Positions 5,917 to 18,212 of a stretch of DNA of 64,000 nt are shown piece after piece. The position numbers and the translations under genes were made by a program. The notes beneath the pieces are model-generated. The model was not told where the DNA came from. It did not search any database and saw nothing but the letters and a program-made list of their open reading frames with translations. Position 1 is the first letter of the stretch; every line of letters begins with the position of its first letter. The DNA is from Alphaproteobacteria bacterium PA4 (GTDB lineage Bacteria; Pseudomonadota; Alphaproteobacteria; Sphingomonadales; Sphingomonadaceae): NCBI GenBank assembly GCA_002256005.1, contig NKIQ01000003.1, forward strand, positions 62,001 to 126,000. The letters are read 5' to 3'.

Positions 5917-6864
5917 TTACTTCCGCTCCACCACATCATTGCGCGCCAGTGTGGACCGCAGCCCGGTCCCTGACAGCCAGGCCGCGTCGCGCGTGCTGTC
6001 GAGCAGGGTCGCGCCCCAGAAGGCGCTGGTGGCGGCCAGCATGACCTGCTGGATGTGCGCGGTGGTGGCGTCGCTGGCGCTGCGGTTGCCGCTGAACATC
6101 ATATGCGTGCCGCCGGCGAGCATGAGCAGCGTCTTGCGGCCGTCGGCTGGCAGGGCGCGATAGACCTGGGTGCGGGCGGCGGCAGCGGCGGTGCGCTGGT
6201 CGGCCGGCGCGCTGGCGCTGCTGCCGTCGAGCGTGCCGGTGATGCCGAGCACGGGCAGGCCGATACGGCCGAAGGCGGCGGCGGGATCGCTGACATAGGG
6301 CGCCGAGGTGCTGAGCAATATGGCGGCGCGGATGCGGCGGTCGGCGAGCGTGCCACCGGGCCAGCGTTGCCCGGCGAGCGCCTGCACCGTCCAGGCGCCC
6401 ATGCTGTGGCCGGCGGCGCCGATGCGGTCGGGGTCGATGCGGCCGAGGTCACAGGCCCCTTCGCGCGGGCGGCGCATGGCCTCGTCAAGCACGAAGCGGG
6501 CATCGCCGACGCGGGCGACGAGCTGGTCGAACTGGATGGCGGCGGTGATGCGGGCGGCGCGATCGGCCTTGCTCAATTGCCCGGCATAGACGGTGGTGTC
6601 GCTGCCGGGGTGGGACAGGTGGATGACGATCAGGCCGCGGCGGGCCCAGGCAGCGCCCAGCACGGCACCGGCACCGGCATCGCCGCCGACGCCGGGGCTG
6701 AACAGCAGCAGCGGTGCCCGGGCCGTGCCGGCCGGCATGCGGATGCGCACCGGCAGGTCGCGGTCGCGCGCCGCGTCATGCCAGACGGCGGCGCAGACCG
6801 GCCCGGCATCCGGAGCGGCGGTTGGGGCCGCGCTGGCCAGCAGCAGGGCGAGGGATGCGATCAG
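5917..6864 (-). CDS. Secreted alpha/beta hydrolase with apparent CTG start
   Basis: Alpha/beta-hydrolase fold: oxyanion-hole region LLLFSPGVGG, nucleophile elbow GHSMGAW, an Asp in GITGTLDGS and a late His in LAGGTHMMFSG, consistent with a dienelactone-hydrolase/PAF-acetylhydrolase-like esterase. The first conventional start is GTG at 6750, but that would cut into the fold. The frame stays open back to a TAA at 6886-6888 with no ATG, GTG or TTG, yet reads a fine signal peptide (after the start, IASLALLLASAAP) from CTG at 6864, which sits 8 nt after GAGGAGG. CTG is therefore the likely initiation codon, giving 315 aa. Product probably periplasmic; substrate unknown. Confidence 0.75.
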   Translation of the reverse strand: MIASLALLLASAAPTAAPDAGPVCAAVWHDAARDRDLPVRIRMPAGTARAPLLLFSPGVGGDAGAGAVLGAAWARRGLIVIHLSHPGSDTTVYAGQLSKADRAARITAAIQFDQLVARVGDARFVLDEAMRRPREGACDLGRIDPDRIGAAGHSMGAWTVQALAGQRWPGGTLADRRIRAAILLSTSAPYVSDPAAAFGRIGLPVLGITGTLDGSSASAPADQRTAAAAARTQVYRALPADGRKTLLMLAGGTHMMFSGNRSASDATTAHIQQVMLAATSAFWGATLLDSTRDAAWLSGTGLRSTLARNDVVERK

Positions 6865-6931
6865 CGGGCCTGCCTCCTCTGTCCGTTACGCCGGGTGCGA
6901 CGCCGCGTCCGGCGGACACAGGACAGAAGAA

Positions 6932-6961
6932 ACCGGGTCCCGGGTCAAGCCCGGGAAGACA
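6932..6961. repeat. Single arm of repeat family R1
   Basis: One arm, ACCGGGTCCCGGGTCAAGCC followed by CGGGAAGACA, of the inverted repeat found complete at 9657-9740 and 23810-23898. It lies between phoD and the hydrolase gene and contains its own small CCCGGG-centred stem. Confidence 0.6.
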
Positions 6962-6970
6962 GGTCGATTG

Positions 6971-8590
6971 TCAGACCAACGCCATCTTGCGCGCGCCGCG
7001 CTTTACCGTTGCGGCCTGGCCGATGCCGGTCGCGGTGGAGCGTTCGCGGATGCCGGCCATGAACACCCAGTCGGCGCGCGCCGCTTCGGGCGTGAAGCTG
7101 ACGGTCAGGTAACCGCGGCGGCTGGTGTCGCACCAGCGCATCTCGGGATTGCCGGCGACGAGCCCGGCGCGGATCACCGCCGGATCGGCGGCGAGCGCCG
7201 ATTCATAGCCCGGCGAGGTCACCGACTGGCCGGCGAACTCGACACCGGCGGGCTTGCCGCCTTCGGCCAGATCGAACGCCCAGGCGTTGTGGCTGTCGCC
7301 CGAAATCACCACCATGTCGGCATCGGCGGCCTGGGCCGCCTTCAGCAGTCGCTGGCGGGCCTGCGGATAGCCGCTCCACATGTCCATCGCACCGGGAATG
7401 CCGGCCGAGGCCGCGGCGAGGCCGCCCTTGATATAGCCCTGGGCGCGCGGATCGGCATTGGGGCCGAGCCAGCTCAGCGCCTCCTTCGGCGTGTAGATAT
7501 TGCCCATCACCACCTGCTGGGCGAGCAGCTGCCATTTCTGGCCGGACTTGACGCTGGCCTTCAGCGTTTTCGCCAGCCAGGCTTCCTTTTCCAGGCCGAG
7601 CAGCGTGCGGTCGGCGGCGTTCCATTGCTGGTCCTTGAAGGCGATCAGCGCGTCCTTGCCACCCTTCAGCGCGGCACCGAGATTGAGCTGCTGGTCGCGG
7701 CCCTCGACGCGGGTGTCGAGGGTGATGAGGCTGACGAGATTGCCGATGTCATAGCGGGTATAGGGCGCGTCGCTGCCCGGCAGCCATTCGGCATGGACCT
7801 GTTTTGCCGTCGCCTTGCGCGCCTGCCAGTCGCCTTCGGTAGCGGGGTCATGGTTTTCGGCGCCATTCTTCCAGGCGTCATTGGCGAATTCATGATCGTC
7901 CCAGATGCTGATCATCGGGAACAGGCGGTGCAGTTCCTGCAGGGCCGGATCAACGCGATAGCTGGCATAGCGCTGGCGATAATCGTCGAGGCGGACCATC
8001 TCGCTGGCCGGCTCGATATCGCGGCCGGCGAGCGTTTCGGCGGCGCTCGGGTAGATGCCGCGCGCATATTCATAGAGATAATCGCCGAGGTGGACGACGA
8101 GATCGATATCGGTGCGCGCCGCGGCATGGGCATAGGCGTTGAACCAGCCGAACGGCTTGTTGGCGCAGGAAAACACCGCGATGTTGAAACGCGACAATGG
8201 TCCCGCCGGCAGAGTGCGGGTGCGGCCGATGGCGGATTGGCTGCCATCGGGGGCGGTGAAGCGATAGAACAGCCAGCCGCCCGCCGGCAGGCCGGTGATG
8301 CGCGCCTGCGCCGTGCCCCAGCTGGCCGGGCCGGCAGTGGTTTCGCTGCGCTGGATGATGTTGGTCATGCCGGCATCGGTCGCCACCTCGACCTTCAGCA
8401 CCGCATCGCGGCCGTCGGCGCTGGCATAGCGCGTCCACAGCTTCACCGAATCGGGCTGAGGGTCGCCGGAGGCGACGCCATGGGTGAAACCCTTGTCCGC
8501 CCACAGCCCGGCCAGGGCCGGTCGGGCCGGCAGCAGCAGGCCGGCGCTGGCGGCGGTGAGGAAGCCGCGACGATCAAGGGCAATGCGCAT
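6971..8590 (-). CDS. phoD: PhoD-like alkaline phosphatase/phosphodiesterase
   Basis: 539 aa. The N terminus DRRGFLTAA is a twin-arginine (Tat) signal followed by a hydrophobic stretch ending in ARPALA, so the folded enzyme is exported to the periplasm. PhoD-family landmarks: FTHGVASGDPQ, LHLGDYLYEYARG with metal-binding Asp/Tyr, IWDDHEFANDAW, and GDSHNAWAFDL near the end. The family is Ca/Fe dependent and releases phosphate from phosphomonoesters and diesters. Start ATG has an AAGG site in front. No obvious Pho box was recognised upstream. Confidence 0.9.
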   Translation of the reverse strand: MRIALDRRGFLTAASAGLLLPARPALAGLWADKGFTHGVASGDPQPDSVKLWTRYASADGRDAVLKVEVATDAGMTNIIQRSETTAGPASWGTAQARITGLPAGGWLFYRFTAPDGSQSAIGRTRTLPAGPLSRFNIAVFSCANKPFGWFNAYAHAAARTDIDLVVHLGDYLYEYARGIYPSAAETLAGRDIEPASEMVRLDDYRQRYASYRVDPALQELHRLFPMISIWDDHEFANDAWKNGAENHDPATEGDWQARKATAKQVHAEWLPGSDAPYTRYDIGNLVSLITLDTRVEGRDQQLNLGAALKGGKDALIAFKDQQWNAADRTLLGLEKEAWLAKTLKASVKSGQKWQLLAQQVVMGNIYTPKEALSWLGPNADPRAQGYIKGGLAAASAGIPGAMDMWSGYPQARQRLLKAAQAADADMVVISGDSHNAWAFDLAEGGKPAGVEFAGQSVTSPGYESALAADPAVIRAGLVAGNPEMRWCDTSRRGYLTVSFTPEAARADWVFMAGIRERSTATGIGQAATVKRGARKMALV

Positions 8591-8663
8591 GGCGAACCTT
8601 CCAGCTATGGGTGTTTGGCGTGGCGATAGACACAGTATGTGACAGGGTGAGGAAGCCTAGACC

Positions 8664-8834
8664 GTGGCGAAGATGCGCAGCAAGGCCGATCTACCGCAAA
8701 AGCCCTGCGCCGCCTGTGGCCGGCCGTTCAGCTGGCGAAAGAAATGGGCGCGGGATTGGGACAATGTGCGCTATTGTTCGGATGCCTGCCGCACCGGCGC
8801 CTATTCCCGCGCCCGCGAAAAGGGCGCAAGCTAG
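8664..8834 (+). CDS. DUF2256 small zinc-ribbon protein
   Basis: A 56-aa frame starting with GTG at 8664 (ATG at 8673 is the alternative). It carries two CxxC-like pairs, KPCAACGRPFSWRKKW and RYCSDACR, which match the DUF2256 family closely (CxxCGRPFxWRKKWxxxWxxVxYCSxxCR). The four cysteines should bind one zinc. Function of the family is unknown. GAGGAA about 10 nt upstream can serve as ribosome-binding site. It precedes the aldolase gene by 24 bp and may be co-transcribed with it. Confidence 0.8.
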   Translation: MAKMRSKADLPQKPCAACGRPFSWRKKWARDWDNVRYCSDACRTGAYSRAREKGAS

Positions 8835-8858
8835 CGGCGCATATCAGGGAGAATCACG

Positions 8859-9638
8859 ATGGCCACCCAGCTGAAACCCGTTGCCGGCGTCAAGGACCAG
8901 GTCTCTGCCGAAGAATGGGCGATCCGCACCGATCTTGCCGCCGCCTATCGGCTGGTGGCGCTTTATGGCTGGGACGACATCATCTTCACCCATCTGTCGG
9001 CGCGGGTGCCGGGGCCGGAACATCATTTCCTGATCAACCCCTATAATCTGATGTTCGAGGAGATCACGGCGTCGAGCCTCGTCAAGATCGACGTCAATGG
9101 CCAGCCGGTGATGGAAACCCCCTATCTGACCAACCCGGCCGGCTTCACCATCCACAGTGCGCTGCACATGGCGCGCGAGGATGCCCATGCCGTGATGCAC
9201 GTCCACACCAAGGCGGGGCAGGCGGTCAGCGCCCAGGCCGAAGGGCTGATGCCGCTGACGCAGACCGCCATGCTGATCCGCGATGAAGTGACCTATCACG
9301 AGTATGAAGGTGTCGCGACCGACCTCGACGAGCGCGAGCGGCTGGTTGCCGACCTTGGCCCGACAAAGCGGGCGATGATCCTCCGGAACCATGGCACGCT
9401 CGCCATCGGCAGCACGGTCGCCGAATGTTTCCTCAACCTCTATTTCCTTGAGCGCGCCTGCGAGGCGCAGGTGATGGCGCTGAGCGCCGGGCCGGGCGGG
9501 CTCTACAACCCGCCGCAGGGCACCCCGGAAAAGGCCGCTGACCAGGGCAAGCAGGGGCTGGGTCTGGTTGCCAACAAGCTGGCCTGGCCGGCGCTGCTGA
9601 GGAAGCTCGACCGGATCGATCCCAGCTTCCGGGATTGA
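8859..9638 (+). CDS. Class II aldolase/adducin family protein
   Basis: 259 aa, full length for the family. The zinc-binding His pair is in MHVHTKAGQA, a third His is in LRNHGTLAIG, and FTHLSARVPG is the usual N-terminal loop. Related proteins cleave phosphorylated sugars (fuculose-phosphate aldolase) or act as decarboxylases; the members with YNLMFEEITAS resemble the broad non-sugar class found widely in proteobacteria, so no substrate is assigned. Start ATG follows GGGAGAATCACG. Read through an R1 repeat downstream, which may act as terminator. Confidence 0.85.
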   Translation: MATQLKPVAGVKDQVSAEEWAIRTDLAAAYRLVALYGWDDIIFTHLSARVPGPEHHFLINPYNLMFEEITASSLVKIDVNGQPVMETPYLTNPAGFTIHSALHMAREDAHAVMHVHTKAGQAVSAQAEGLMPLTQTAMLIRDEVTYHEYEGVATDLDERERLVADLGPTKRAMILRNHGTLAIGSTVAECFLNLYFLERACEAQVMALSAGPGGLYNPPQGTPEKAADQGKQGLGLVANKLAWPALLRKLDRIDPSFRD

Positions 9639-9656
9639 GCTGCACCTGTCTTCAAC

Positions 9657-9740
9657 TGTCATCCCGGGCTCGACCCGGGACCCAGTTTCTTCGCGCGGAA
9701 CGGCAGAAAAGCTGGGTCCCGGGTCAAGCCCGGGATGACA
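9657..9740. repeat. Inverted repeat family R1, complete copy
   Basis: TGTCATCCCGGG...GACCCGGGACCCAG and its reverse complement flank a 21-bp spacer. Each arm also folds on itself through CCCGGGCT/AGCCCGGG-like stems. It sits between convergent aldolase and SWIB genes and could terminate transcription from both sides. Other copies: 18238-18266 (short), 23810-23898 and one arm at 6932. Confidence 0.8.
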
Positions 9741-9860
9741 TGAAGAGGCGTTGATCACCCGATCAGCGCCGACCCGACACGCCCCCAAAATCAAACAGCC
9801 GGCGCGGGGTGACCCGGCCGGCTGTCGATGCATCAAGGGCGGCCCGTTCGGGCCGGCCGG

Positions 9861-10118
9861 TCACTTCAGGTGACGGGCGAGATGCTTGTTCATTTCGAAC
9901 ATCGAGCATTTGTCGACGCCGAACACCTTCTTCAGGGCGGCATCGGCATTGATCTGGCGCTTGTCCGCCGCGTCCTGCAGGTTGTGGGCCTTGATATAGT
10001 CCCAGACCTTCTTGACGACCTGGCCGCGGGCCAGCGGCGCGGCGCCGACGATCGCTGCCAGTTCCGCCGACGGAGTCAGCGGCTTTTGCAGCGCGTCGGT
10101 CTTCTTGGCTTCTGCCAT
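9861..10118 (-). CDS. SWIB/MDM2 domain protein
   Basis: 85 aa, essentially one SWIB domain: PLTPSAELAAIVGAAPLARG, KKVWDYIKAHNLQD, and KKVFGVDKCSMFEMNKHL are the characteristic helices. SWIB domains are best known from eukaryotic chromatin remodellers, but free-standing versions occur in many proteobacteria and chlamydiae; the bacterial role is unknown, with DNA or protein binding inferred from the fold. ATG at 10118 is preferred over upstream starts because GGGGAGAAAC stands directly before it and the Lys-rich N terminus is typical. Confidence 0.88.
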   Translation of the reverse strand: MAEAKKTDALQKPLTPSAELAAIVGAAPLARGQVVKKVWDYIKAHNLQDAADKRQINADAALKKVFGVDKCSMFEMNKHLARHLK

Positions 10119-10195
10119 GTTTCTCCCCTCTTGTACGCACATGGAGTCATCCAACATGGCAACTCCTTCTTGGCTGGAAAAATGCTTAGCGAAAC

Positions 10196-10549
10196 TTAGG
10201 CGTCACGCAACTGTCTCGATACGTCTTCCGTCGAAGATTCGACCGATTCAAGACTTTCCATGTCCTGTTGCACGCCGCGCAGGATGCGCGCGATGAATTC
10301 GCGGGTGGCAAGGCCGCGTTCATGGCCGGCGGCGCGATCGGGGGCATAGGCCTCGATATCGGCGCGGCTGATGCTGCCCTTGGCATCCAGCAGCCGCTCG
10401 ACGGTGTCGAGCCGTTCCTTGACCACCGAGACTTCGCCGGCCAGCGCCATGACGATCGACAAGATGCGGTCGCTGGCCGGATCCTCGAGATATTTCGGCC
10501 GGGCGCCCTTGGGCTTGGCCCCGGCGCGGGCGATCCAGTCGACGCTCAT
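10196..10549 (-). CDS. Small conserved hypothetical protein, coupled to methyltransferase
   Basis: 117 aa, no signal peptide or membrane segment. The middle (about residues 30-60) is a predicted short coiled coil (SVVKERLDTVERLLDAKG) and the C terminus is acidic and Ser-rich. Its ATG overlaps the stop of the methyltransferase gene by 4 bp, so the pair is co-translated and the proteins probably act together, perhaps as a complex. No family recognised. Confidence 0.75.
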   Translation of the reverse strand: MSVDWIARAGAKPKGARPKYLEDPASDRILSIVMALAGEVSVVKERLDTVERLLDAKGSISRADIEAYAPDRAAGHERGLATREFIARILRGVQQDMESLESVESSTEDVSRQLRDA

Positions 10550-11772
10550 TCCGCAGCCTCCTGCATGGCGACGGCCTGTTTCCAGGCGCCATAGGCATGC
10601 CAGACAGCGGCGCGGCCGAAATCTTCGGAATCGCCCTCGACCGACGGCGGGAAGATCGCCGTGTCGACCACCGCCCGCACCTTGGCCTCGAACTGCTGGT
10701 CGCGCGGCAGGCCGGCATCGGCCAATATGTCGTGCATGTCATAGGCATGCATCGCCGACCAGAACGGCTCATTGTTGTTGAAGGCGTCCCAATCCCGCAT
10801 GAACTGTTCGAACAGCGGCATGTCGGGGGTGTACTGCGGCTGTTCGAGGTGCAGCATCAGGCCACCGGCGGCCAGCACACGGGCACCTTCGCCGATGATC
10901 TTCGGCAGCGCCAGGCCTGAGGTTTCGTGCAGGAACATCGTCGTCTGCACCCAGTCGAAATGGCTGTCGGGGAAGCGCGACAGATCCTCGGCATTCATCT
11001 GGATGAAGCGGATGTTGGTGACGCCCAGAGAGCGCGCCCGGGCATGGGCATAGCGCAGCACCGGCCCGGCGGTATCGATGGCGATCACTTCGGCATCCGG
11101 ATAGGCCATGGCCATCGGCAGGGCGCTGTGGCCGACGGTGACGCCGATGTCGAGGATGCGGCGCGGCCGCCAGTCGGGCCGGGTTTCCTTCGCCCATTTG
11201 GCGATGGCCTGGCCGCCGCCATCCGACAGCGCGCCCATGCCGCCGCCGGTTGTGACGAAGATGCCGCAATCATAATTGGCGCCGGCCGACACATCGCCGG
11301 GCAGCTCTTCGCCATGATAGCTGCCGGGCATGCAATGGATGTCGACGGCGCGCTGGTAGCGCGGGATGGCGACCGACGGATCGAGCTCCAGCCCTTCGCC
11401 GCTGCCGGACGCCGCCGCAGCGCGGGCGTTGAGGTCCTCCAGCTGGCGCAGCACGATGCTGCGGCCGTTCTGCTGGCGCATTTCCATGTTGTTGCGCTTC
11501 AGCGCCGACCAGAAGCGATGATAGGGGTCGGCGTTCATCGCCCGCCGCACCTCGAACCGGTCCTGCGGCTCGCGATCATGCTCGGCGATGAATTTCGGCA
11601 GCGCCCGTTTTTCCCAGGCCAGCCTGTTGCCCGGCCCCAGCGTGCCGGCCACATGCTTGTTGAGGTTGGCGAGAAAATTGAAGCGCGCCCGCTCGTCGTG
11701 ATTGGCGTGGGGAAACACGCCATGGGTGCCGACCATCGAATAAGGGGGCGGGATATCGTCGTGGATCGCCAT
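10546..11772 (-). CDS. SAM-dependent class I methyltransferase
   Basis: 408 aa. A roughly 150-residue N-terminal part of unknown function precedes a Rossmann methyltransferase domain with motif I ILDIGVTVGHSALP, motif II AEVIAIDTAG, post-motif IRFIQMNAEDLSRFPD and FDWVQTTMFLHETS. The motif I Gly pattern is DIGVTVG rather than the common DxGxGxG, but the spacing is right. ATG at 11772 is chosen because GGAGGT lies 6 nt before it; an upstream ATG in the same frame lacks such a site. Acceptor substrate unknown. Co-translated with the 117-aa protein. Confidence 0.82.
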   Translation of the reverse strand: MAIHDDIPPPYSMVGTHGVFPHANHDERARFNFLANLNKHVAGTLGPGNRLAWEKRALPKFIAEHDREPQDRFEVRRAMNADPYHRFWSALKRNNMEMRQQNGRSIVLRQLEDLNARAAAASGSGEGLELDPSVAIPRYQRAVDIHCMPGSYHGEELPGDVSAGANYDCGIFVTTGGGMGALSDGGGQAIAKWAKETRPDWRPRRILDIGVTVGHSALPMAMAYPDAEVIAIDTAGPVLRYAHARARSLGVTNIRFIQMNAEDLSRFPDSHFDWVQTTMFLHETSGLALPKIIGEGARVLAAGGLMLHLEQPQYTPDMPLFEQFMRDWDAFNNNEPFWSAMHAYDMHDILADAGLPRDQQFEAKVRAVVDTAIFPPSVEGDSEDFGRAAVWHAYGAWKQAVAMQEAAE

Positions 11773-11897
11773 GGCTGGACCTCCGGCTGTCATCAACAGG
11801 GGATTGGTGTCGATTTATCGCGGGGCCAAGTCAATCCGCAAAGCCACCTAATCGCCGGGGTGACCGATGCGCGGACAATGATGCTGAAGCATAGCGT

Positions 11898-11953
11898 GGA
11901 CGTTCGCAAGGCGGCCAGGTCGACCCGGTGCGAACGTCCCCACGCATGCGTGG
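11898..11953. repeat. Strong hairpin plus 14-bp palindrome upstream of methyltransferase
   Basis: GGACGTTCGCA at 11898 pairs perfectly with TGCGAACGTCC ending at 11939, enclosing a 20-nt loop, and is followed at once by the perfect palindrome CCACGCATGCGTGG (11940-11953). It lies in the 274-bp space between the nitrilase-like stop and the methyltransferase start. It could terminate the nitrilase operon or be an operator of the methyltransferase; no T-tract is seen. Confidence 0.5.
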
Positions 11954-12046
11954 CGGCCCTCCCCGTCACGCCCATTTCCCATAGTGCAATTGGCATGTCC
12001 GCTGCAAGGTTTTAGGGAATTGCAATGCTTACGGTTGCGTAAGGTG

Positions 12047-13099
12047 TCAAATCAGGCCCGATTCTGCCAAACGTTCGATGACATTGGCCTGCAAGCGCTG
12101 GAAATGACTGCGATCCGGCGTCGTGATCTGACCGTCGTGGATCAGCGAATCGGCCGGTTGCACCTGCCCGGCATAGGTGCCGGCAAACAGTTCCAGCCGC
12201 TGCCGCGACAGGTAATTGGTCATGCCCGGCTTGCGGCGGGCGCGGCGCACGGCGTCGATGTCCACATCGCCAAAGGCGGTGAAGGTTTCGCCGCTGTTCG
12301 ATTCGGCCAGCACATTGCCCTTCCAGTCGATCAGCGCCGAATTGCCATCGGCCGAGGCCAGCGGCATCGCCGTGCCAGCAATGCCCGCGGTGTTGGCGGA
12401 GACGACATAGGCGAGGTTTTCGAAGGCCCGGGCCCGCCGCGCCAATTGCTTGTGGGTCAGATTGGGGGAGCCGATCTCGGACGAGCAATGCACGAACAGC
12501 TCGGCCCCGCGCAGGGCATGGGCGCGAGCGATTTCGGGATATAGGATTTCTTCCGATGCGATTGCCGCCAGCCGGCCGATGTCGGTGTCGGCAACCGGGA
12601 ACACCCCGGCCTCGCCATAAATATCGAGATAACGCGACCAGACATCGTGCGGCGTCACCGCATACATGGAATTCAACCGGCGATAGCGCAGCACCACGGC
12701 GCCCGAGGGCGCGACGATGAAGCTGGTCTGGAAATAAAGGCCGGGGAAATGCGCGTCGGTTTCATAGGCGTTGCCGGCGATGAACAGGCCCAGCGCCATC
12801 GCCGCGGCGCCCAGTGCCTCATATTCCGGGCCGCCTTCGGCGATCGCCGCCTTGTCGGCAAATTCGGCGATGCCGATGCGGCCGGGGTAGGAGGTGAACA
12901 GATATTCGGGCAGCACCACCAGCCGCAGCGGACTGCCGCCATATTGTTCGATGAAAACCTTGGCCTGCAGGATCTGCGCCTGCACCCGGGCGATCTGCGC
13001 CAGCATCTGCGCCCGGGCGGCGGCGCGATCGGCGGCCGGCTCCACCGATTGCGCCGTCAGCTGCATGGCGACGGCGGCATAGAGCGGCACGCTGGTCAT
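12047..13099 (-). CDS. Nitrilase-superfamily protein lacking the catalytic Cys
   Basis: 350 aa, carbon-nitrogen hydrolase fold: catalytic Glu region LRLVVLPEYLF is present, but the Lys position reads VLRYRRLNSM (Arg instead of Lys) and the strand that normally carries ICYD reads LAAIASEEILYPEIARAHA, with Ser in place of the nucleophilic Cys. The following LRGAELFVHCSSE and ANTAGI segments are typical. So the protein belongs to the superfamily but probably does not act by the normal thioester mechanism. Start ATG overlaps the MFS stop by 4 bp; with the MFS permease and TonB receptor upstream it forms a probable uptake/processing operon. Confidence 0.8.
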   Translation of the reverse strand: MTSVPLYAAVAMQLTAQSVEPAADRAAARAQMLAQIARVQAQILQAKVFIEQYGGSPLRLVVLPEYLFTSYPGRIGIAEFADKAAIAEGGPEYEALGAAAMALGLFIAGNAYETDAHFPGLYFQTSFIVAPSGAVVLRYRRLNSMYAVTPHDVWSRYLDIYGEAGVFPVADTDIGRLAAIASEEILYPEIARAHALRGAELFVHCSSEIGSPNLTHKQLARRARAFENLAYVVSANTAGIAGTAMPLASADGNSALIDWKGNVLAESNSGETFTAFGDVDIDAVRRARRKPGMTNYLSRQRLELFAGTYAGQVQPADSLIHDGQITTPDRSHFQRLQANVIERLAESGLI

Positions 13100-14328
13100 G
13101 CTTGCCTCGCCCCGAACTCCGGATAGCGGCCCAGGGTCAGCGGCAGCAGGCCACCCAGGGCGAACAGGCCGATGGCGACGACCAGCATCGCATCATAGCT
13201 GCCGGTGGCATCGCGCACCGCACCATAGACCGCCGGCGAAATCGCCGAGCCGATGCCGAACGGCATGTAGAGCAGGCCATAGATCTTGCCATAATGCGCC
13301 ATGCCGAAATAGCGGCCGGCGAGATAGGCGATGAGATCGGATTCGGCGCCGGCGGCAAAGCCGAGCAGAACGGCGCCGGCCAGCAGTTGCGTCATGCTGC
13401 CGGCGGTGCCCATCACCAGCCAGCAGGCCAGCGCCGGGCCGAGCAGGATCGGCACCAGCACCGCCGGCGCCCAGAAGCGATCGAACAACATGCCGGTGAT
13501 GACGCGGCCGGCGAGGATGCCAAGCGCCATCACGCTCATCACCGTCGCGCCTGCGGCCGGGGTGAAGCCGTGCAACTGCACGATCTGGATCATGTTGATG
13601 AACACGCCGCCATAGGCAAAGGCGACCATGGCGATCGACAGCCAGATCACCCAGAAACGAAAGCCGCGCATCGCCGCGCCCACCGTCAAGCCGGTCAGAT
13701 TGCCGGCGGCGTCGCTGATGCCCGGCGGCCGTTCCGCCACCTCGGGTTCGCGGAACAGCCACAGCGCCAGCGGCACCGCCACCAGCAGCGGCAGCAGCGC
13801 CAGCGTCGGGAAGACGCCGCGCCAGCCGCTGCCGATGAACTTGCCGGCAATGGCGGCCTGGGCGATCTGCGGTACCAATATGCCGGCAAGGCTGGTGCCG
13901 AGCAGCATGATGCCCAGCGCCAGCCCGCGGTTCTTGACGAACCACATGTTGATCGCCCGGCTCCACGTCACCGGTGTCGAACCGATGCCGACCAGCCCGA
14001 CCAGCAACCACAGCCCGTACCAGGCGGTGCGCGACGGCGGCATGGCGGCAAACAGCGCGAAGGTGGCGGCAAAGCCGAGCAGCGAGGCGATGGCGACGCG
14101 GCGCACCCCCCAGCGATCGGCGGCGGCGCCATAAAGAGGGGCCAGCAGCGCGGCGACGACGCCGAACAATGTAATGCCGAGGCTGATTTCGAGGAAGCTC
14201 CAGCCCAGTTCGGCATGAATGGGGCCGATGACGGCAGGCAGCACGTTGAACGGAATGGGGGAGGCGCCGCAGCCGACGCCGATCATGGCGGCAAAGAGGA
14301 CGGGGCCACCCTTGCGGAATTCGCTCAT
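13096..14328 (-). CDS. MFS transporter
   Basis: 410 aa with about 12 hydrophobic segments. Major-facilitator hallmarks: the loop 2-3 motif reads PLYGAAADRWGVRRVAI and its repeat ITGMLFDRFWAPAVL appears in the second half. The architecture resembles the oxalate/formate-antiporter-like and monocarboxylate MFS groups, suggesting an anionic small molecule, but the substrate is not determined. Its stop overlaps the start of the nitrilase-like gene, tying import and downstream chemistry together. A TonB receptor gene lies upstream on the same strand, 220 bp away. Confidence 0.85.
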   Translation of the reverse strand: MSEFRKGGPVLFAAMIGVGCGASPIPFNVLPAVIGPIHAELGWSFLEISLGITLFGVVAALLAPLYGAAADRWGVRRVAIASLLGFAATFALFAAMPPSRTAWYGLWLLVGLVGIGSTPVTWSRAINMWFVKNRGLALGIMLLGTSLAGILVPQIAQAAIAGKFIGSGWRGVFPTLALLPLLVAVPLALWLFREPEVAERPPGISDAAGNLTGLTVGAAMRGFRFWVIWLSIAMVAFAYGGVFINMIQIVQLHGFTPAAGATVMSVMALGILAGRVITGMLFDRFWAPAVLVPILLGPALACWLVMGTAGSMTQLLAGAVLLGFAAGAESDLIAYLAGRYFGMAHYGKIYGLLYMPFGIGSAISPAVYGAVRDATGSYDAMLVVAIGLFALGGLLPLTLGRYPEFGARQA

Positions 14329-14431
14329 GGGGTCGCGCTCCTGGTCGTGGCGCGGGTGGTGAGGGCTGAGCGGTGGATGGTCATGAGCCCCCTGATGCTG
14401 GAACTGGATCGAAAGCCTGGCAAGGAAAGAG

Positions 14432-14517
14432 GCACGGGCAAAGCCCGTGCCGACGTCGGACGGGTTCGGCGGGGGAAGATCCCGCCGCCCCGCCGGCCGA
14501 GCGTGCGCGAGTCCGCG
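14432..14517. repeat. Two-hairpin repeat family R4, copy A
   Basis: Hairpin 1 is GCACGGGC-AAA-GCCCGTGC, followed by a constant GACGTCG.ACGGGTTC segment, then hairpin 2 GGCGGG...CCCGCC, then CCCCGCCGGCC and GAGTCCGCG. It lies just downstream of the TonB receptor stop. The second copy is at 55669-55753; both hairpins differ between copies by changes that keep pairing. Confidence 0.7.
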
Positions 14518-14548
14518 GACAGCTGCGCTGCCCGCGGCCGCGCATCGC

Positions 14549-17077
14549 TTAGAACACCCGTTTCGCGCGGAGCTGCCAGGTGCGCGGCGGGCTGAGATAG
14601 TTGTAGTTGACGAGGCTGGACTGCGAGAACGCCTTGTCGAAGCAGTTTTCGCACTCGAGGCTGAGCGTCCAGTTGTTGTCGTCGGTGCGCAGCGTCAGCG
14701 CCGCCTGCACCTGCCAATAGGCCTCGGTCAGCGAGCCGGAGATCACCGTGCCGCCATTGGGATTGGCGGGATAGACCGCACCCGACGGCGCCGTGATGTT
14801 GCCGGTGTAGAGCGTGCCATTGGCGGTGCCGGTTTCGAGGCTGGAGCGGTACAGCGCGTTGACCGACGGCGTCAGGATCACGCCAGCGGCCGGGATGGCA
14901 AAGTCGTAGGAGCCGCCGAACGAGACGCTGAGTTCCGGCGTGCGCACCGGCGAGGCGATATTGCCCTTGGCATCGATGATGCCGGCGGCGCAATCGGGTG
15001 CGTTGTTGGCACCGCTCGGCCCCAGCGGTACCCGGCCGGCGGCGAGCTGCGCCCGGCAATCGAGCTGCTGCTGGCGTACCGACTTCACACCATATTTGTT
15101 GGGCGCCAGCGTGTCGCTGACCTTGTACTTGTCATTCTGATAGCCGATGTTGGCGTAAAGGTTCAGCCCCTTCGTCGGAACGGCGGTGATTTCCAGTTCC
15201 AGGCCCTTGTTCTGATAGTCGGCGAAATTCTGGGTGATGAAGGTGACACCGCCCGACACCGGATCGACAAAGGCCGACGGCGTCTGCAGATCCTTGGTTT
15301 CCAGCCAGAAGCCGGTCAGGTTCACCCGCAGCCGGCGATCGAAGAATTCGGTCTTGGCGCCCAGTTCATAGCTCCAGACCTTTTCGGGATCGAAGGGCAG
15401 CAGCGTGTTGTTGGCGGTGCCGCGCGCGTTCCAACCGCCGGATTTGAAGCCGCGGGTGGCGCTGGCGAAGATCAGCATGTCGTTGTTGGGCTTGTAGTTG
15501 ATGGCGAAACGCGGGGTCCACACCTTGACCCGCTGTTCAGTCGGGATGGCGAGGCGGCCGCTTGGCAAATTCACCGCCAGATTGGCGTTGGACAGGCAGC
15601 TGGCCGGGGCGCAGGTGGCGCGGTTGTCGGAAATGCGGAAGGTCTTTTCTTCATCGGTGTAGCGGATGCCGCCGGTCAGCTTGATAGTGTCGGTTGCATT
15701 GAAATCCACCTGCAGATAGCCGGCCTTCGCATTCACCGTGTTGTTGAGCGTGCGATCGGCGAGCAGGAACGGGAAGCCCGCCGCGCCCGGGAAGCCCAGG
15801 TTGAAGACGTCGGCAAAGTCGGTCTTGTTCTTCTCGTTGATGTAGAAAAATCCGGTGACATAATCGATCTTGCCGTCGAACAGCTTGCCGTTCAGCTTCA
15901 CTTCCTGGGTGAACTGGGTGTGCTTGCCGTCATTCAGGATGGCGAAGCCCCCCGACGGGAAGCTGCGCACCGCGGGGGTGGGCACCGACACGTTGGGCAG
16001 GCCACGGCCATCAGCGAAATCCAGTGCATATTGCTGGCGCACATCGATATAGCCGCTGATGACGTTCAGCGTGACATTGTCGGTCGCCCATTCGAAGTTC
16101 GACACATAGATTTGGGAATCGACATTGTTGCCGAGCGGATAGTTCGCCTTGCGACCGGTGACGCCCAGCGCGACATAGGGGCTGTTGGCGCCATTGGCAT
16201 ATTTGCTGACCATGCCCGTGGTGGCGAAGCGGCCGTTGCAATTGGCCGGATTGCGCGGGTCGCAATCGAAGCTGATCAGATTTTCACCATCGTTGCGCAT
16301 GTAGGAGGCCGAGCCGTTCCAGCTGAACGTGTCCGACATCTTCACCCGCACGGCGCCGCGCAGGCCGGCCATGTCGCTGTCGTTCAACCGTTCGCCGGTG
16401 GCGGTGTTGTTCAGCCAGCCATCGGTATCCTGATAATAGCCCGAGATCTTGACCTGGATGACCTCGCTCAGCGGCAGGTCGATCGAGCCGCGGATGGTCT
16501 TCTGGTCATAGGCGCCATAGGCGGCCTCGATATAGCCGCCGAGTTCTTCCGACGGCTTTTTCATCACGACGTTAACGGCACCACCGGTGGTGTTGCGGCC
16601 GAACAGCGTGCCCTGCGGCCCGCGCAGCACCTCGATGCGGTCGACATCGAAAAAGGCGAAATTGTTGGCGTTCTGTCGCGACATGTAGATGTCGTCGATA
16701 TAGGTGCCGACCGGCGGATCGAAGGTCGCGATGGTTTCGGTGTTGCCGAGACCGCGGATATAATAGGCGTTGGCGGAGCCAAGGCCGGTGTTGTTGGAGC
16801 CGAACAGGTTCGGCACATAGTTGATCAGTTGCAGTGGCGTCGCGATGCCGCGCTGCGACAGCAGATCGGCGGAAAAGGCGCTGATCGCGATCGGCACCGC
16901 CTGCTGGCTCTCCTTGCGACGCTGGGCGGTGACGATGATGTCCGGAATCGCATCGTCATCGGATGCGGCGGCGGTCGTGGCGGCCGGCGTCTGCGCCTGT
17001 GCGACGCCGCCGATCAGCGTTGCCGCCAGCAGCGCGGCCCGGCCGGTATAACGGAACCCTTTGCCCAGCATCATCAT
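14549..17077 (-). CDS. TonB-dependent outer-membrane receptor
   Basis: 842 aa. Signal peptide ending AGVAQAQ-like (LLAATLIGGVAQAQ), then a TonB box/plug start DDDAIPDIIVTAQRRKE, plug motifs NYVPNLFGSNN, IEVLRGPQGTLFGRNTTGG, and a beta barrel ending in LRAKRVF with a terminal Phe as expected for outer-membrane assembly. The plug style (AQRRKE...GRNTTGGAVN) is that of the expanded sphingomonad receptors for organic nutrients rather than classical siderophore receptors. Start ATG at 17077 (first of three Met codons) follows GGGAGACGGGGA. With the MFS and nitrilase-like genes downstream it likely feeds one pathway. A perfect TTGTCCGGACAA palindrome lies 80 bp upstream. Confidence 0.92.
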   Translation of the reverse strand: MMMLGKGFRYTGRAALLAATLIGGVAQAQTPAATTAAASDDDAIPDIIVTAQRRKESQQAVPIAISAFSADLLSQRGIATPLQLINYVPNLFGSNNTGLGSANAYYIRGLGNTETIATFDPPVGTYIDDIYMSRQNANNFAFFDVDRIEVLRGPQGTLFGRNTTGGAVNVVMKKPSEELGGYIEAAYGAYDQKTIRGSIDLPLSEVIQVKISGYYQDTDGWLNNTATGERLNDSDMAGLRGAVRVKMSDTFSWNGSASYMRNDGENLISFDCDPRNPANCNGRFATTGMVSKYANGANSPYVALGVTGRKANYPLGNNVDSQIYVSNFEWATDNVTLNVISGYIDVRQQYALDFADGRGLPNVSVPTPAVRSFPSGGFAILNDGKHTQFTQEVKLNGKLFDGKIDYVTGFFYINEKNKTDFADVFNLGFPGAAGFPFLLADRTLNNTVNAKAGYLQVDFNATDTIKLTGGIRYTDEEKTFRISDNRATCAPASCLSNANLAVNLPSGRLAIPTEQRVKVWTPRFAINYKPNNDMLIFASATRGFKSGGWNARGTANNTLLPFDPEKVWSYELGAKTEFFDRRLRVNLTGFWLETKDLQTPSAFVDPVSGGVTFITQNFADYQNKGLELEITAVPTKGLNLYANIGYQNDKYKVSDTLAPNKYGVKSVRQQQLDCRAQLAAGRVPLGPSGANNAPDCAAGIIDAKGNIASPVRTPELSVSFGGSYDFAIPAAGVILTPSVNALYRSSLETGTANGTLYTGNITAPSGAVYPANPNGGTVISGSLTEAYWQVQAALTLRTDDNNWTLSLECENCFDKAFSQSSLVNYNYLSPPRTWQLRAKRVF

Positions 17078-17157
17078 TCCCCGTCTCCCTGTCTGTCGCC
17101 GCCCCCCGGCGGCCTCCATTTGCAATCATGCCGCGATTTGCCCGCAATGCAACAGAG

Positions 17158-17169
17158 TTGTCCGGACAA
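17158..17169. promoter_or_regulatory. Palindromic operator candidate TTGTCCGGACAA
   Basis: A perfect 12-bp palindrome in the divergent spacer between the TonB receptor (minus) and the DUF1330 gene (plus). TTGTC...GACAA half-sites are typical of GntR/FadR-family regulators. It lies immediately upstream of the plus-strand promoter, so it could control both directions. No GntR gene is in the window. Confidence 0.5.
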
Positions 17170-17173
17170 ATTT

Positions 17174-17202
17174 TTGACATGTGGTTTCTTGCGCGCGATA
17201 GT
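17174..17202 (+). promoter_or_regulatory. Sigma-70-type promoter for the DUF1330 operon
   Basis: TTGACA (17174-17179), 17-bp spacer, GATAGT (17197-17202). The predicted start point near 17209 leaves a leader of about 20 nt with GGAG placed 7 nt before the ATG at 17230. Confidence 0.55.
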
Positions 17203-17229
17203 CGCGTTTCGGCAACAGTGGAGCACCCG

Positions 17230-17550
17230 ATGGACGATGCCGTCTTGCCGCCGCGGCCGGCCTATCTGCTGGTCACGGCGCGCGTCAGCGATCCGGTGAA
17301 AATGGGCGCCTATGCGCGCGCGCTCGCTGCATCGGGCCTTTATGCCCGGCACGGCGGCCATTATCTGTTCATCGGCAAGCCGGTCGCCGAGATGGAGGAC
17401 TGGCCGGCGGGGCAGAGCATCGTCTGCGCGCATTTTCCCAGCCGCGCTGCTGCCGAAGCCTTCTGGACCGACGCGCAATATCAGAATGATATCAAGCCGT
17501 TGCGCGATGGCGCCGGCGAGTTCCACATCGCGATCTTCGAGGGCGCATGA
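17230..17550 (+). CDS. DUF1330 family protein
   Basis: 106 aa, ferredoxin-like alpha/beta dimer fold of the DUF1330 group: PAYLLVTARVSDPVKMGAYA, a GHYLFIGKPV strand, IVCAHFPSRAAAEAFW and YQNDIKPLRDGAGEF. The family is small, cytoplasmic and of unknown function. ATG 17230 is chosen over GTG 17218 because of a GGAG site at 17219-17222 and the promoter geometry. It overlaps the next gene by 4 bp and is divergent from the TonB receptor, so may share its regulator. Confidence 0.83.
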   Translation: MDDAVLPPRPAYLLVTARVSDPVKMGAYARALAASGLYARHGGHYLFIGKPVAEMEDWPAGQSIVCAHFPSRAAAEAFWTDAQYQNDIKPLRDGAGEFHIAIFEGA

Positions 17551-18212
17551 TCTATCCGACACTTGTCTATGCACATCTGCTGCTGTTCGTGCTCTGGCTG
17601 GGCGGCGATCTCGGCGTCTTCGTCCTCGGCCAGCATTTCCGCCGCCGCGATTATTCGCTGCCGGAACGGCTGACGCTGCTGAAGCTGCTCGTCGCCATCG
17701 ACATGGGGCCGCGCTCGGCCTGGGCGCTGATGGTGCCGATGTCGCTGACCTTGCTCTACGCCGGCGGTTGGTGGGTGGGTCTACCCTTGGCACTGGTGCT
17801 GGCCGGCTGGGCGGTCGGGCTGTTCTGGCTGTGGCTGGTCTGGGATGCCCATGCCCATGACATGACTCCGCGCTCTGCCCGCGACCGGCGCATCGAGGGC
17901 TGGTTGCGTTATGGGTTGACGGCTTTCTACCTCGGTCTCGGTGGCGCTTCGCTCGCGGCCGGGGCGCCGCTGGCCGAAACCTGGCTGGCGCTGAAGGCGC
18001 TGCTGTTCGGGCTGATCTTTGCCGCTGCGATCATGATCGATCATGCCTTCAAGCCGGTCGGGCCGCAGCTGATGGCGCTGATCGAACAGGGATCGAGCGA
18101 TGCCACGGAAGTGCCGCTGCGTGCGACGATGGATGGCACAAGGCGCTGGGTGTTCACCGTCTATGCGCTGCTGTTCGTCACCAGCTGGCTGGGGCAGGTG
18201 AAGCCGTTCTGA
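17547..18212 (+). CDS. Multi-spanning inner-membrane protein
   Basis: 221 aa with about six hydrophobic helices (roughly residues 4-25, 58-76, 78-98, 120-140, 145-163 and 195-215). A His in the first helix (VYAHLLLFVLWLGGDLGVFV) and one in the fourth loop (IDHAFKPVG) recall CopD/DUF2269-like haem or copper membrane proteins, but that is only a resemblance. ATG overlaps the DUF1330 stop (ATGA), so the pair is an operon. Function unknown. Confidence 0.75.
   Translation: MIYPTLVYAHLLLFVLWLGGDLGVFVLGQHFRRRDYSLPERLTLLKLLVAIDMGPRSAWALMVPMSLTLLYAGGWWVGLPLALVLAGWAVGLFWLWLVWDAHAHDMTPRSARDRRIEGWLRYGLTAFYLGLGGASLAAGAPLAETWLALKALLFGLIFAAAIMIDHAFKPVGPQLMALIEQGSSDATEVPLRATMDGTRRWVFTVYALLFVTSWLGQVKPF

Follow-up and report, generated by a model that had tools for sequence, protein, structure and literature searches.

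A nitrilase-superfamily protein with a conserved Glu-Arg-Ser site in a sphingomonad transporter cluster

Can a nitrilase-superfamily protein that carries neither the nucleophilic cysteine nor the catalytic lysine of its family still be an enzyme? The question is raised by a gene of Alphaproteobacteria bacterium PA4 (Sphingomonadaceae), which lies in a stretch of 64,000 nucleotides of contig NKIQ01000003.1 (hereafter, the window) together with the genes for a TonB-dependent receptor and a major facilitator superfamily (MFS) permease. In excerpts of PMC4812014, PMC10781810, and PMC5500890, the nitrilase superfamily is described by a Cys-Glu-Lys triad, with the Cys as the nucleophile, the Glu as the base, and the Lys as the oxyanion or acid group. 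A first-pass annotation of the window pointed to a Ser in place of the Cys and an Arg in place of the Lys, with the Glu retained, and proposed a binding or regulatory protein, a Ser-dependent variant, or a non-amide hydrolase. The explanation favoured here, to which we give an even chance, is that the protein belongs to the AmiE/formamidase-like branch of the superfamily, that its active site changed from Glu-Lys-Cys to Glu-Arg-Ser ahead of the spread of the clade and has since been kept under selection, and that it is most likely still an enzyme, working in a catabolic cluster.

Superfamily membership is clear from the match to PF00795 (CN_hydrolase), at 98.0 bits against a curated cut-off of 23.2. 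HMMER alignments to the aliphatic amidase AmiE (PDB 2uxy) and to formamidases pair Glu65 with the catalytic Glu, Arg141 with the catalytic Lys, and Ser182 with the catalytic Cys, which bears out the substitutions initially proposed. Specifically, the Lys region reads RYRRL, as against KYRKI or KYRKL, and the nucleophile region reads ASEEILYPE, as against ICDDGNYPE; the register at Ser182 is anchored by the formamidase structures 2dyu and 2e2k, which carry Cys and Ser, respectively, at the nucleophile position. The protein thus has the catalytic Glu of the triad and lacks its nucleophilic Cys and its catalytic Lys. The second Glu of the C-E-E-K tetrad of AmiE and the formamidases is likewise absent in either of two differing registers, as AmiE E142 falls on Asp152 and the formamidase second Glu on residue 149, a Thr or a Ser.

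The same residues recur throughout the relatives. A scan of genome contigs, run with six seed peptides of which one (EEILYPEI) adjoins Ser182 without including it, found 409 relatives, and the best 80 were kept; the 111 loci with a match were merged to 98 distinct proteins, one of which is the query (L004), leaving 97 relatives, and the locus set leaves out four strong matches (G129, G133, G122, and G141) and most lower-ranked rows. Glu65, Arg141, and Ser182 are each identical in 98/98 rows, as are P150, H151, and D152, in a set whose lowest pairwise identity is 42.9%, and neither Ala, Gly, nor Thr ever occurs at position 182. The adjacent E183 and E184 are also invariant (99/99 rows; like every count given out of 99, this one contains the query twice). 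Of 32 other PF00795 loci that serve as a background, drawn from the PA4 genome and from related ones, 31 carry the canonical Cys motif, and the pattern left one (L005) unresolved; 30 of the 32 are best-scoring matches, which tilts this background towards typical members.

A nearby cysteine, that of the FVHCSSE motif, had been named in the first-pass annotation as a residue that might turn out to be the true nucleophile, and this did not hold: column 205 contains Ser in 86 of the 98 rows, Cys in 5 (the query and 4 of its 97 relatives), Ala in 4, Asn in 2, and Pro in 1. Cys205 is not conserved and is therefore ruled out as a hidden nucleophile. A frame error or a pseudogene is ruled out as well, in agreement with the initial reading of the locus, since the frame is open, the site is invariant in a set with pairwise identities down to 42.9%, and the structural model is confident. 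More generally, decay or an assembly artefact, by which the cysteine would have been lost through drift or error in this one genome, is highly improbable: a few broken copies do exist elsewhere (G133 and G141 with one in-frame stop, and a broken extra copy in G006), but the site is invariant in 97/97 distinct relatives from many genera, and these proteins form a single clade with 100/100 support. Codon usage points the same way. Ser182 is encoded by TCN in 81 and by AGY in 18 of the 99 rows, with at least nine switches between the two classes on a quick tree, and Arg141 by CGN in 92 and by AGR in 7, with at least seven switches. A switch of class made one base at a time goes by way of a different residue, which only a simultaneous change of two bases would avoid; the Ser and the Arg therefore look held by selection, and a conserved and selected site argues against decay.

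The AlphaFold2 model of the protein (built from 53 rows; pLDDT, the predicted local distance difference test, 94.2; pTM, the predicted template modelling score, 0.94) places Ser182 as the first residue of helix 182-186, directly after strand 175-181. This strand-to-helix turn is the place of the nucleophile in nitrilases, whose nucleophile elbow is described in an excerpt of PMC4812014, and the modelled position counts in favour of the explanation preferred here. When the model was compared with solved structures by Foldseek and VIA-align 2, formamidases and aliphatic amidases ranked first, and the protein has the nitrilase/amidase fold. With AmiE (PDB 2uxy and 2plq) the protein shares the fold (2uxy, Z 32.4, root-mean-square deviation 2.8 over 291 residues), the catalytic Glu, and the nucleophile turn, but it is only 22% identical and differs by Arg for Lys, by Ser for Cys, and, in the AmiE alignment, by Asp152 for Glu142. 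The formamidase AmiF (PDB 5g3o and 2dyu) has a comparable fold (Z about 31) and, as 5g3o, is the best profile match among solved structures (4.7e-32); here too the Lys and the Cys are exchanged for Arg and Ser, and no Glu stands at the place of the AmiF second Glu.

This resemblance in fold and overall alignment is what speaks for an ordinary amidase that would use Ser like Cys, with the reaction and substrate class of AmiE and formamidase at a slower rate. The scores are nonetheless far under the curated NCBIfam cut-offs for formamidase (NF009803, 67.3 against 406 bits) and aliphatic amidase (NF009802, 61.3 against 427), and under that for nitrilase (NF040852, 44.2 against 500); together with the low identity to AmiE, the replacement of the Lys as well as the Cys, and the lost reactivity of an engineered Ser version of a relative (excerpt of PMC4812014), this makes such an amidase improbable.

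The engineered proteins also bear on a different alternative. The Cys-to-Ser mutants of AmiF and MtCPA (PDB 2e2k/2e2l and 5h8k/5h8l) have the same fold and a Ser at the nucleophile position, but there the Ser is man-made, whereas the present Ser is natural and paired with Arg. For the C158S mutant of the plant relative MtCPA, an excerpt of PMC4812014 states that the exchange "preserved binding properties ... but strongly diminished its reactivity", and a Ser that binds like Cys and does not react is what would be expected of a ligand-binding or regulatory pseudoenzyme whose pocket binds a pathway compound, as a carrier, a helper of the MFS permease, or a sensor without turnover. A mere scaffold, on the other hand, needs neither an invariant change of Lys to Arg nor an invariant Glu, and none of the 98 distinct rows has Ala, Gly, or Thr at position 182; a pseudoenzyme is thus rather unlikely, although it is the strongest of the alternatives.

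The Ser/Arg proteins form one clade of 28 rows with 100/100 support in a 53-row tree, which was built after removal of E65, R141, S182, and their adjoining columns and which used 24 of the 99 family rows, with L128, L130, L143, and L144 left out; the deeper branching order is unsure, with long branches flagged by the tree program. Four proteins 49-53% identical to the query (L145, L146, L147, and L116, the last from the actinobacterium Nonomuraea) keep the Glu, the Arg, the Asp, and the Ser. The partial row L143 keeps the Arg, the Asp, and the Ser, and the broken extra copy L144 keeps the Ser, has Glu at 152, and is not readable at 141. The P-H-D motif extends to most rows of the wider comparison, in which the Lys is kept outside the clade and the nucleophile column varies. 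Cys is found there in L117, L121, L122, L124, L126-L128, and L130-L132. Ala, with the Glu, the Lys, and the Asp kept, is found in L119 (4848-5936), L120 (4860-5963), L123 (3848-4960), and L129 (866-1933), which are 24-28% identical to the query and come from plasmids of Tsukamurella, Haladaptatus, and Flammeovirga and from a genome of the same order. A plasmid protein of Novosphingobium humi (L118, 6857-7834) has Gly where the Cys would stand and Gln in place of the catalytic Glu, with the Lys kept, and by these residues is even further from a nitrilase. Lastly, a Sphingomonadales nitrilase-like group (L133-L135, L137-L139, and L142) has a gapped nucleophile region of the TATQYEPE type with no Cys at the aligned column and an unsure Thr or Ser; the tree labels T/S2 for L133-L142 were set by counting from the P-E motif, while the column itself shows T, S, V, or I, so that they are unsure.

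From this pattern, the Cys seems to have been lost more than once in this part of the family. That other Cys-less groups carry Ala, Gly, or an unsure Thr or Ser at the nucleophile column lends some weight to a pseudoenzyme. Arg, in turn, occurs only together with Ser, all other wider-comparison rows with a readable residue having Lys, and by this residue count it is special to the Ser clade. Some named relatives illustrate the difference: the plasmid proteins recorded as "nitrilase-related carbon-nitrogen hydrolase" (from Tsukamurella, Haladaptatus, Streptomyces, Flammeovirga, and Paracoccus) share the P-H-D motif and 24-29% identity with the query, but they keep the Lys, and they have Cys in Streptomyces and Paracoccus and Ala in the other three. 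The Ser/Arg protein is a variant within a known superfamily and not a new kind of system, and its double exchange, kept in every intact close relative compared, looks like a durable remodelling of the catalytic site.

How such a site would work can be outlined. The TonB receptor and the MFS permease would bring a substrate in, and the amidase-type pocket would bind it, with Arg141 holding a carboxylate of the substrate or the oxyanion; Glu65, perhaps with Asp152, would act as acid/base either on Ser182 itself, by way of an acyl-serine, or on a water molecule that Ser182 holds in place, and the bond split could be that of an ester, a lactone, an imide, or an activated amide. A Ser nucleophile acting on a more reactive carbonyl and a non-covalent acid/base site are favoured over a binding site because Glu65, Arg141, and Ser182 (and Asp152) are invariant and Ala, Gly, and Thr are missing at 182, and the two are jointly about an even bet. 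PhzD/EntB-type members of the isochorismatase superfamily offer a parallel, having lost their Cys nucleophile and taken up a different, non-covalent reaction; their fold is unrelated, so that this is an analogy only. Three points weigh against an enzyme with a rebuilt site. A ligand-binding protein would conserve the same residues too. S182 is no more strictly conserved than other invariant Ser columns, for example S254, at which both codon classes occur as well; since invariant Ser and Arg columns elsewhere switch in the same way, this codon comparison shows 182 and 141 to be as constrained as the remaining core and not more so. The rows compared, being the best 80 of 409 relatives, are the near part of the family. 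The sequence evidence shows a conserved and selected site but does not separate the three roles proposed in the first-pass annotation. A bolder extension, which we consider possible but put below even chances, is that the nitrilase superfamily contains a natural class of enzymes that are serine-based, or thiol-free in some other way, and for which the Glu-Arg-Ser site is obligatory. This class would have spread through Sphingomonadales and reached Gammaproteobacteria and at least one actinobacterium, would in many lineages be exported to the periplasm by the twin-arginine translocation (Tat) route, and would serve an undescribed catabolic pathway in a step that is neither amide nor nitrile hydrolysis.

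The features of the locus are collected in Table 1, in which the coordinates are positions within the window. All open reading frames (ORFs) of the cluster core lie on the minus strand, and the transcription order is TonB receptor, MFS permease, nitrilase-like protein, methyltransferase, and small protein. The coordinates and frames initially assigned to the first three genes are right, the end at 17077 corresponding to an ATG within the receptor ORF. The proposed coupling of the nitrilase-like gene to the permease gene agrees with an overlap of four bases, ATGA, shared by the stop of the latter and the start of the former, and such tight coupling is also what a pseudoenzyme serving the permease might show.

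Table 1. Features of the nitrilase-like locus and codons of the rebuilt site
Feature	Position	Strand	Basis
Nitrilase-superfamily protein, 350 aa, Glu65/Arg141/Ser182 at Glu-Lys-Cys positions	12047-13099	-	ORF, PF00795, model
MFS transporter, 410 aa	13096-14328	-	PF07690 (MFS_1) 124 bits
TonB-dependent receptor ORF; start probably in ATG run near 17077	14549-17125	-	PF07715 + PF00593 (plug, barrel)
S-adenosylmethionine (SAM)-dependent methyltransferase, conserved downstream gene	10546-11796	-	PF13649 55.3 bits
Small protein, 117 aa, after methyltransferase	10196-10549	-	ORF
Membrane protein (by eye), divergent from receptor gene	17547-18212	+	
DUF1330 protein ORF; true start probably internal, near 17227 (by eye)	16963-17550	+	PF07045 55.1 bits, ORF residues 99-194
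Glu65 codon (catalytic Glu kept)	12905-12907	-	alignment; place computed from ORF start
Arg141 codon (catalytic Lys position)	12677-12679	-	alignment
Asp152 codon, invariant	12644-12646	-	on AmiE E142 in one alignment
Ser182 codon (catalytic Cys position)	12554-12556	-	alignment; strand-to-helix turn 181/182 in model

A relative of the small protein gave no Pfam match. The divergent membrane protein matched no Pfam or NCBIfam family, and the same arrangement recurs in many relatives. An antisense ORF of 950 residues opposite the receptor gene (14447-17299, plus strand) is taken as a by-product of GC-rich DNA and not as a gene. Directly after the small protein, a SWIB/MDM2-domain protein (PF02201, 101.3 bits; 9861-10157, minus strand) is encoded, as also in L006, L007, and L009. 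Further along, a class II aldolase/adducin family protein (8859-9638, plus strand; NF005451, 360.4 bits against a cut-off of 207) is the sole member of its cluster across the compared loci.

In the relatives, neighbours were counted by tblastn in those 63 of 80 loci that extend 4 kb or more to either side, on the same strand, within 4 kb, and with a minimum identity of 40%. An MFS gene accompanies the nitrilase-like gene in 57 of the 63, a GlcD-type FAD-linked oxidase and the gene c5, which has no Pfam match, in 49 each, the methyltransferase in 43, the small protein in 42, and the TonB receptor in 35; without the limits on strand and identity, the counts become 58 for MFS, 50 for the oxidase, 48 for the methyltransferase, and 39 for the receptor. 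The relatives examined thus answer whether a Ser/Arg subfamily is kept near MFS genes across Sphingomonadales, and the answer is yes (98/98 rows; MFS 57/63). Further out, many loci encode an aldehyde dehydrogenase, a pair of PuuE-like proteins (polysaccharide-deacetylase family), an alpha/beta hydrolase, and an isochorismatase-family hydrolase that resembles structures of N-carbamoylsarcosine amidohydrolase. Genes for electron transfer flavoprotein (ETF) beta and alpha follow the nitrilase-like gene in L085 and in the gammaproteobacterial L070, L073, L074, L078, and L080 (L070 Pfam-checked), and an IclR-type regulator was detected upstream in four of these six ETF loci. The window copy, like L006-L009, L063, L072, L075, L076, and L079, has no FAD-linked oxidase between the MFS and nitrilase-like genes or elsewhere in the locus, and the PuuE-like and isochorismatase-family genes found near the nitrilase-like gene in many relatives are not in the window. 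The PA4 genome does encode a PuuE-like pair on another contig (76 and 68% identity to cluster members) and an aldehyde dehydrogenase on a third (65%), and two paralogues of the oxidase are also on other contigs.

The description of the locus as an uptake operon is too narrow, as the clusters of many relatives also hold catabolic enzymes. Such neighbours, catabolic enzymes together with transporters, count in favour of an enzyme, and their gene content gives the picture of a putative catabolic cluster for a compound that would need a TonB receptor, oxidation, and perhaps hydrolysis of a C-N bond. Two candidate substrate classes were considered. Hydrolysis of bile-salt or steroid amides, suggested by relatives in Sphingobium estronivorans and Steroidobacteraceae, was dropped, as the excerpt of PMC12882949 names other genes and offers no link. 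The breakdown of cyclic imides, suggested by the PuuE-like and isochorismatase-family neighbours, is an idea only, as the literature searched did not confirm that some imidases are PuuE-like.

Two other loci of the PA4 genome resemble parts of the cluster. On contig C6, L164 (about 6511-10776) holds a FAD-linked oxidase, a methyltransferase, and a PuuE-like gene (42, 39, and 31% identity to cluster members), with no nitrilase detected there, and from this trio the cluster module may recur for different substrates. On contig C17, L166 (about 8599-17029) holds paralogues of the FAD-linked oxidase, a c10-like gene, and a zinc-dehydrogenase-like gene with a TonB receptor.

The gene is distributed as an accessory trait, being patchy even within the genus. 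Strong matches (best E of 4.5e-99 or lower) occur in 36 of the 148 genomes searched, the next best genome being at 3.5e-36, in 10 of 24 genomes of the same genus, and, in a sample of the phylum, a match at 1e-25 or better occurs in 3 of 398 genomes, PA4 being included in all three counts. A plasmid-collection record from Nonomuraea contains a protein that is 50% identical. One in-frame stop each was seen in G133:C282, G141:C162, and G006:C171, the last being a broken second copy, and the gene seems, from these copies, to be lost now and then.

The relatives also differ in their amino termini. A Tat-like leader of the DRRQ-MMAAALCA type, recognised by a pattern of our own (a few truncated rows being uninformative), precedes the conserved start in 40 of the 97 relatives, including L016-L019, L021-L029, and L031, and is missing in close kin. 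The window copy is without a twin-arginine leader, starting inside the MFS stop with no in-frame start codon upstream. The compartment has apparently changed among members of this single family: if the leader is read correctly, the protein would be periplasmic in some lineages and cytoplasmic in others, which would fit a role close to the uptake step. A leader of this kind is also what a periplasmic binding protein might have, a further point for the pseudoenzyme, set against the invariant Glu-Arg-Ser site on which the preference for an enzyme relies.

Searches of the open-access PMC literature found no paper devoted to a nitrilase clade with Ser or Arg, or to the cluster, a statement that extends to these searches alone. 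For annotation, the public-record name "nitrilase-related carbon-nitrogen hydrolase", attached to distant and partly Cys-less relatives, may mislead. For the organism, the conserved cluster points to a sphingomonad catabolic pathway of which the literature searched holds no description. For the superfamily, a natural clade with both Ser and Arg, without exception among the intact rows examined, offers a direct test of whether this scaffold can carry out chemistry without a thiol or has turned into a protein that only binds.

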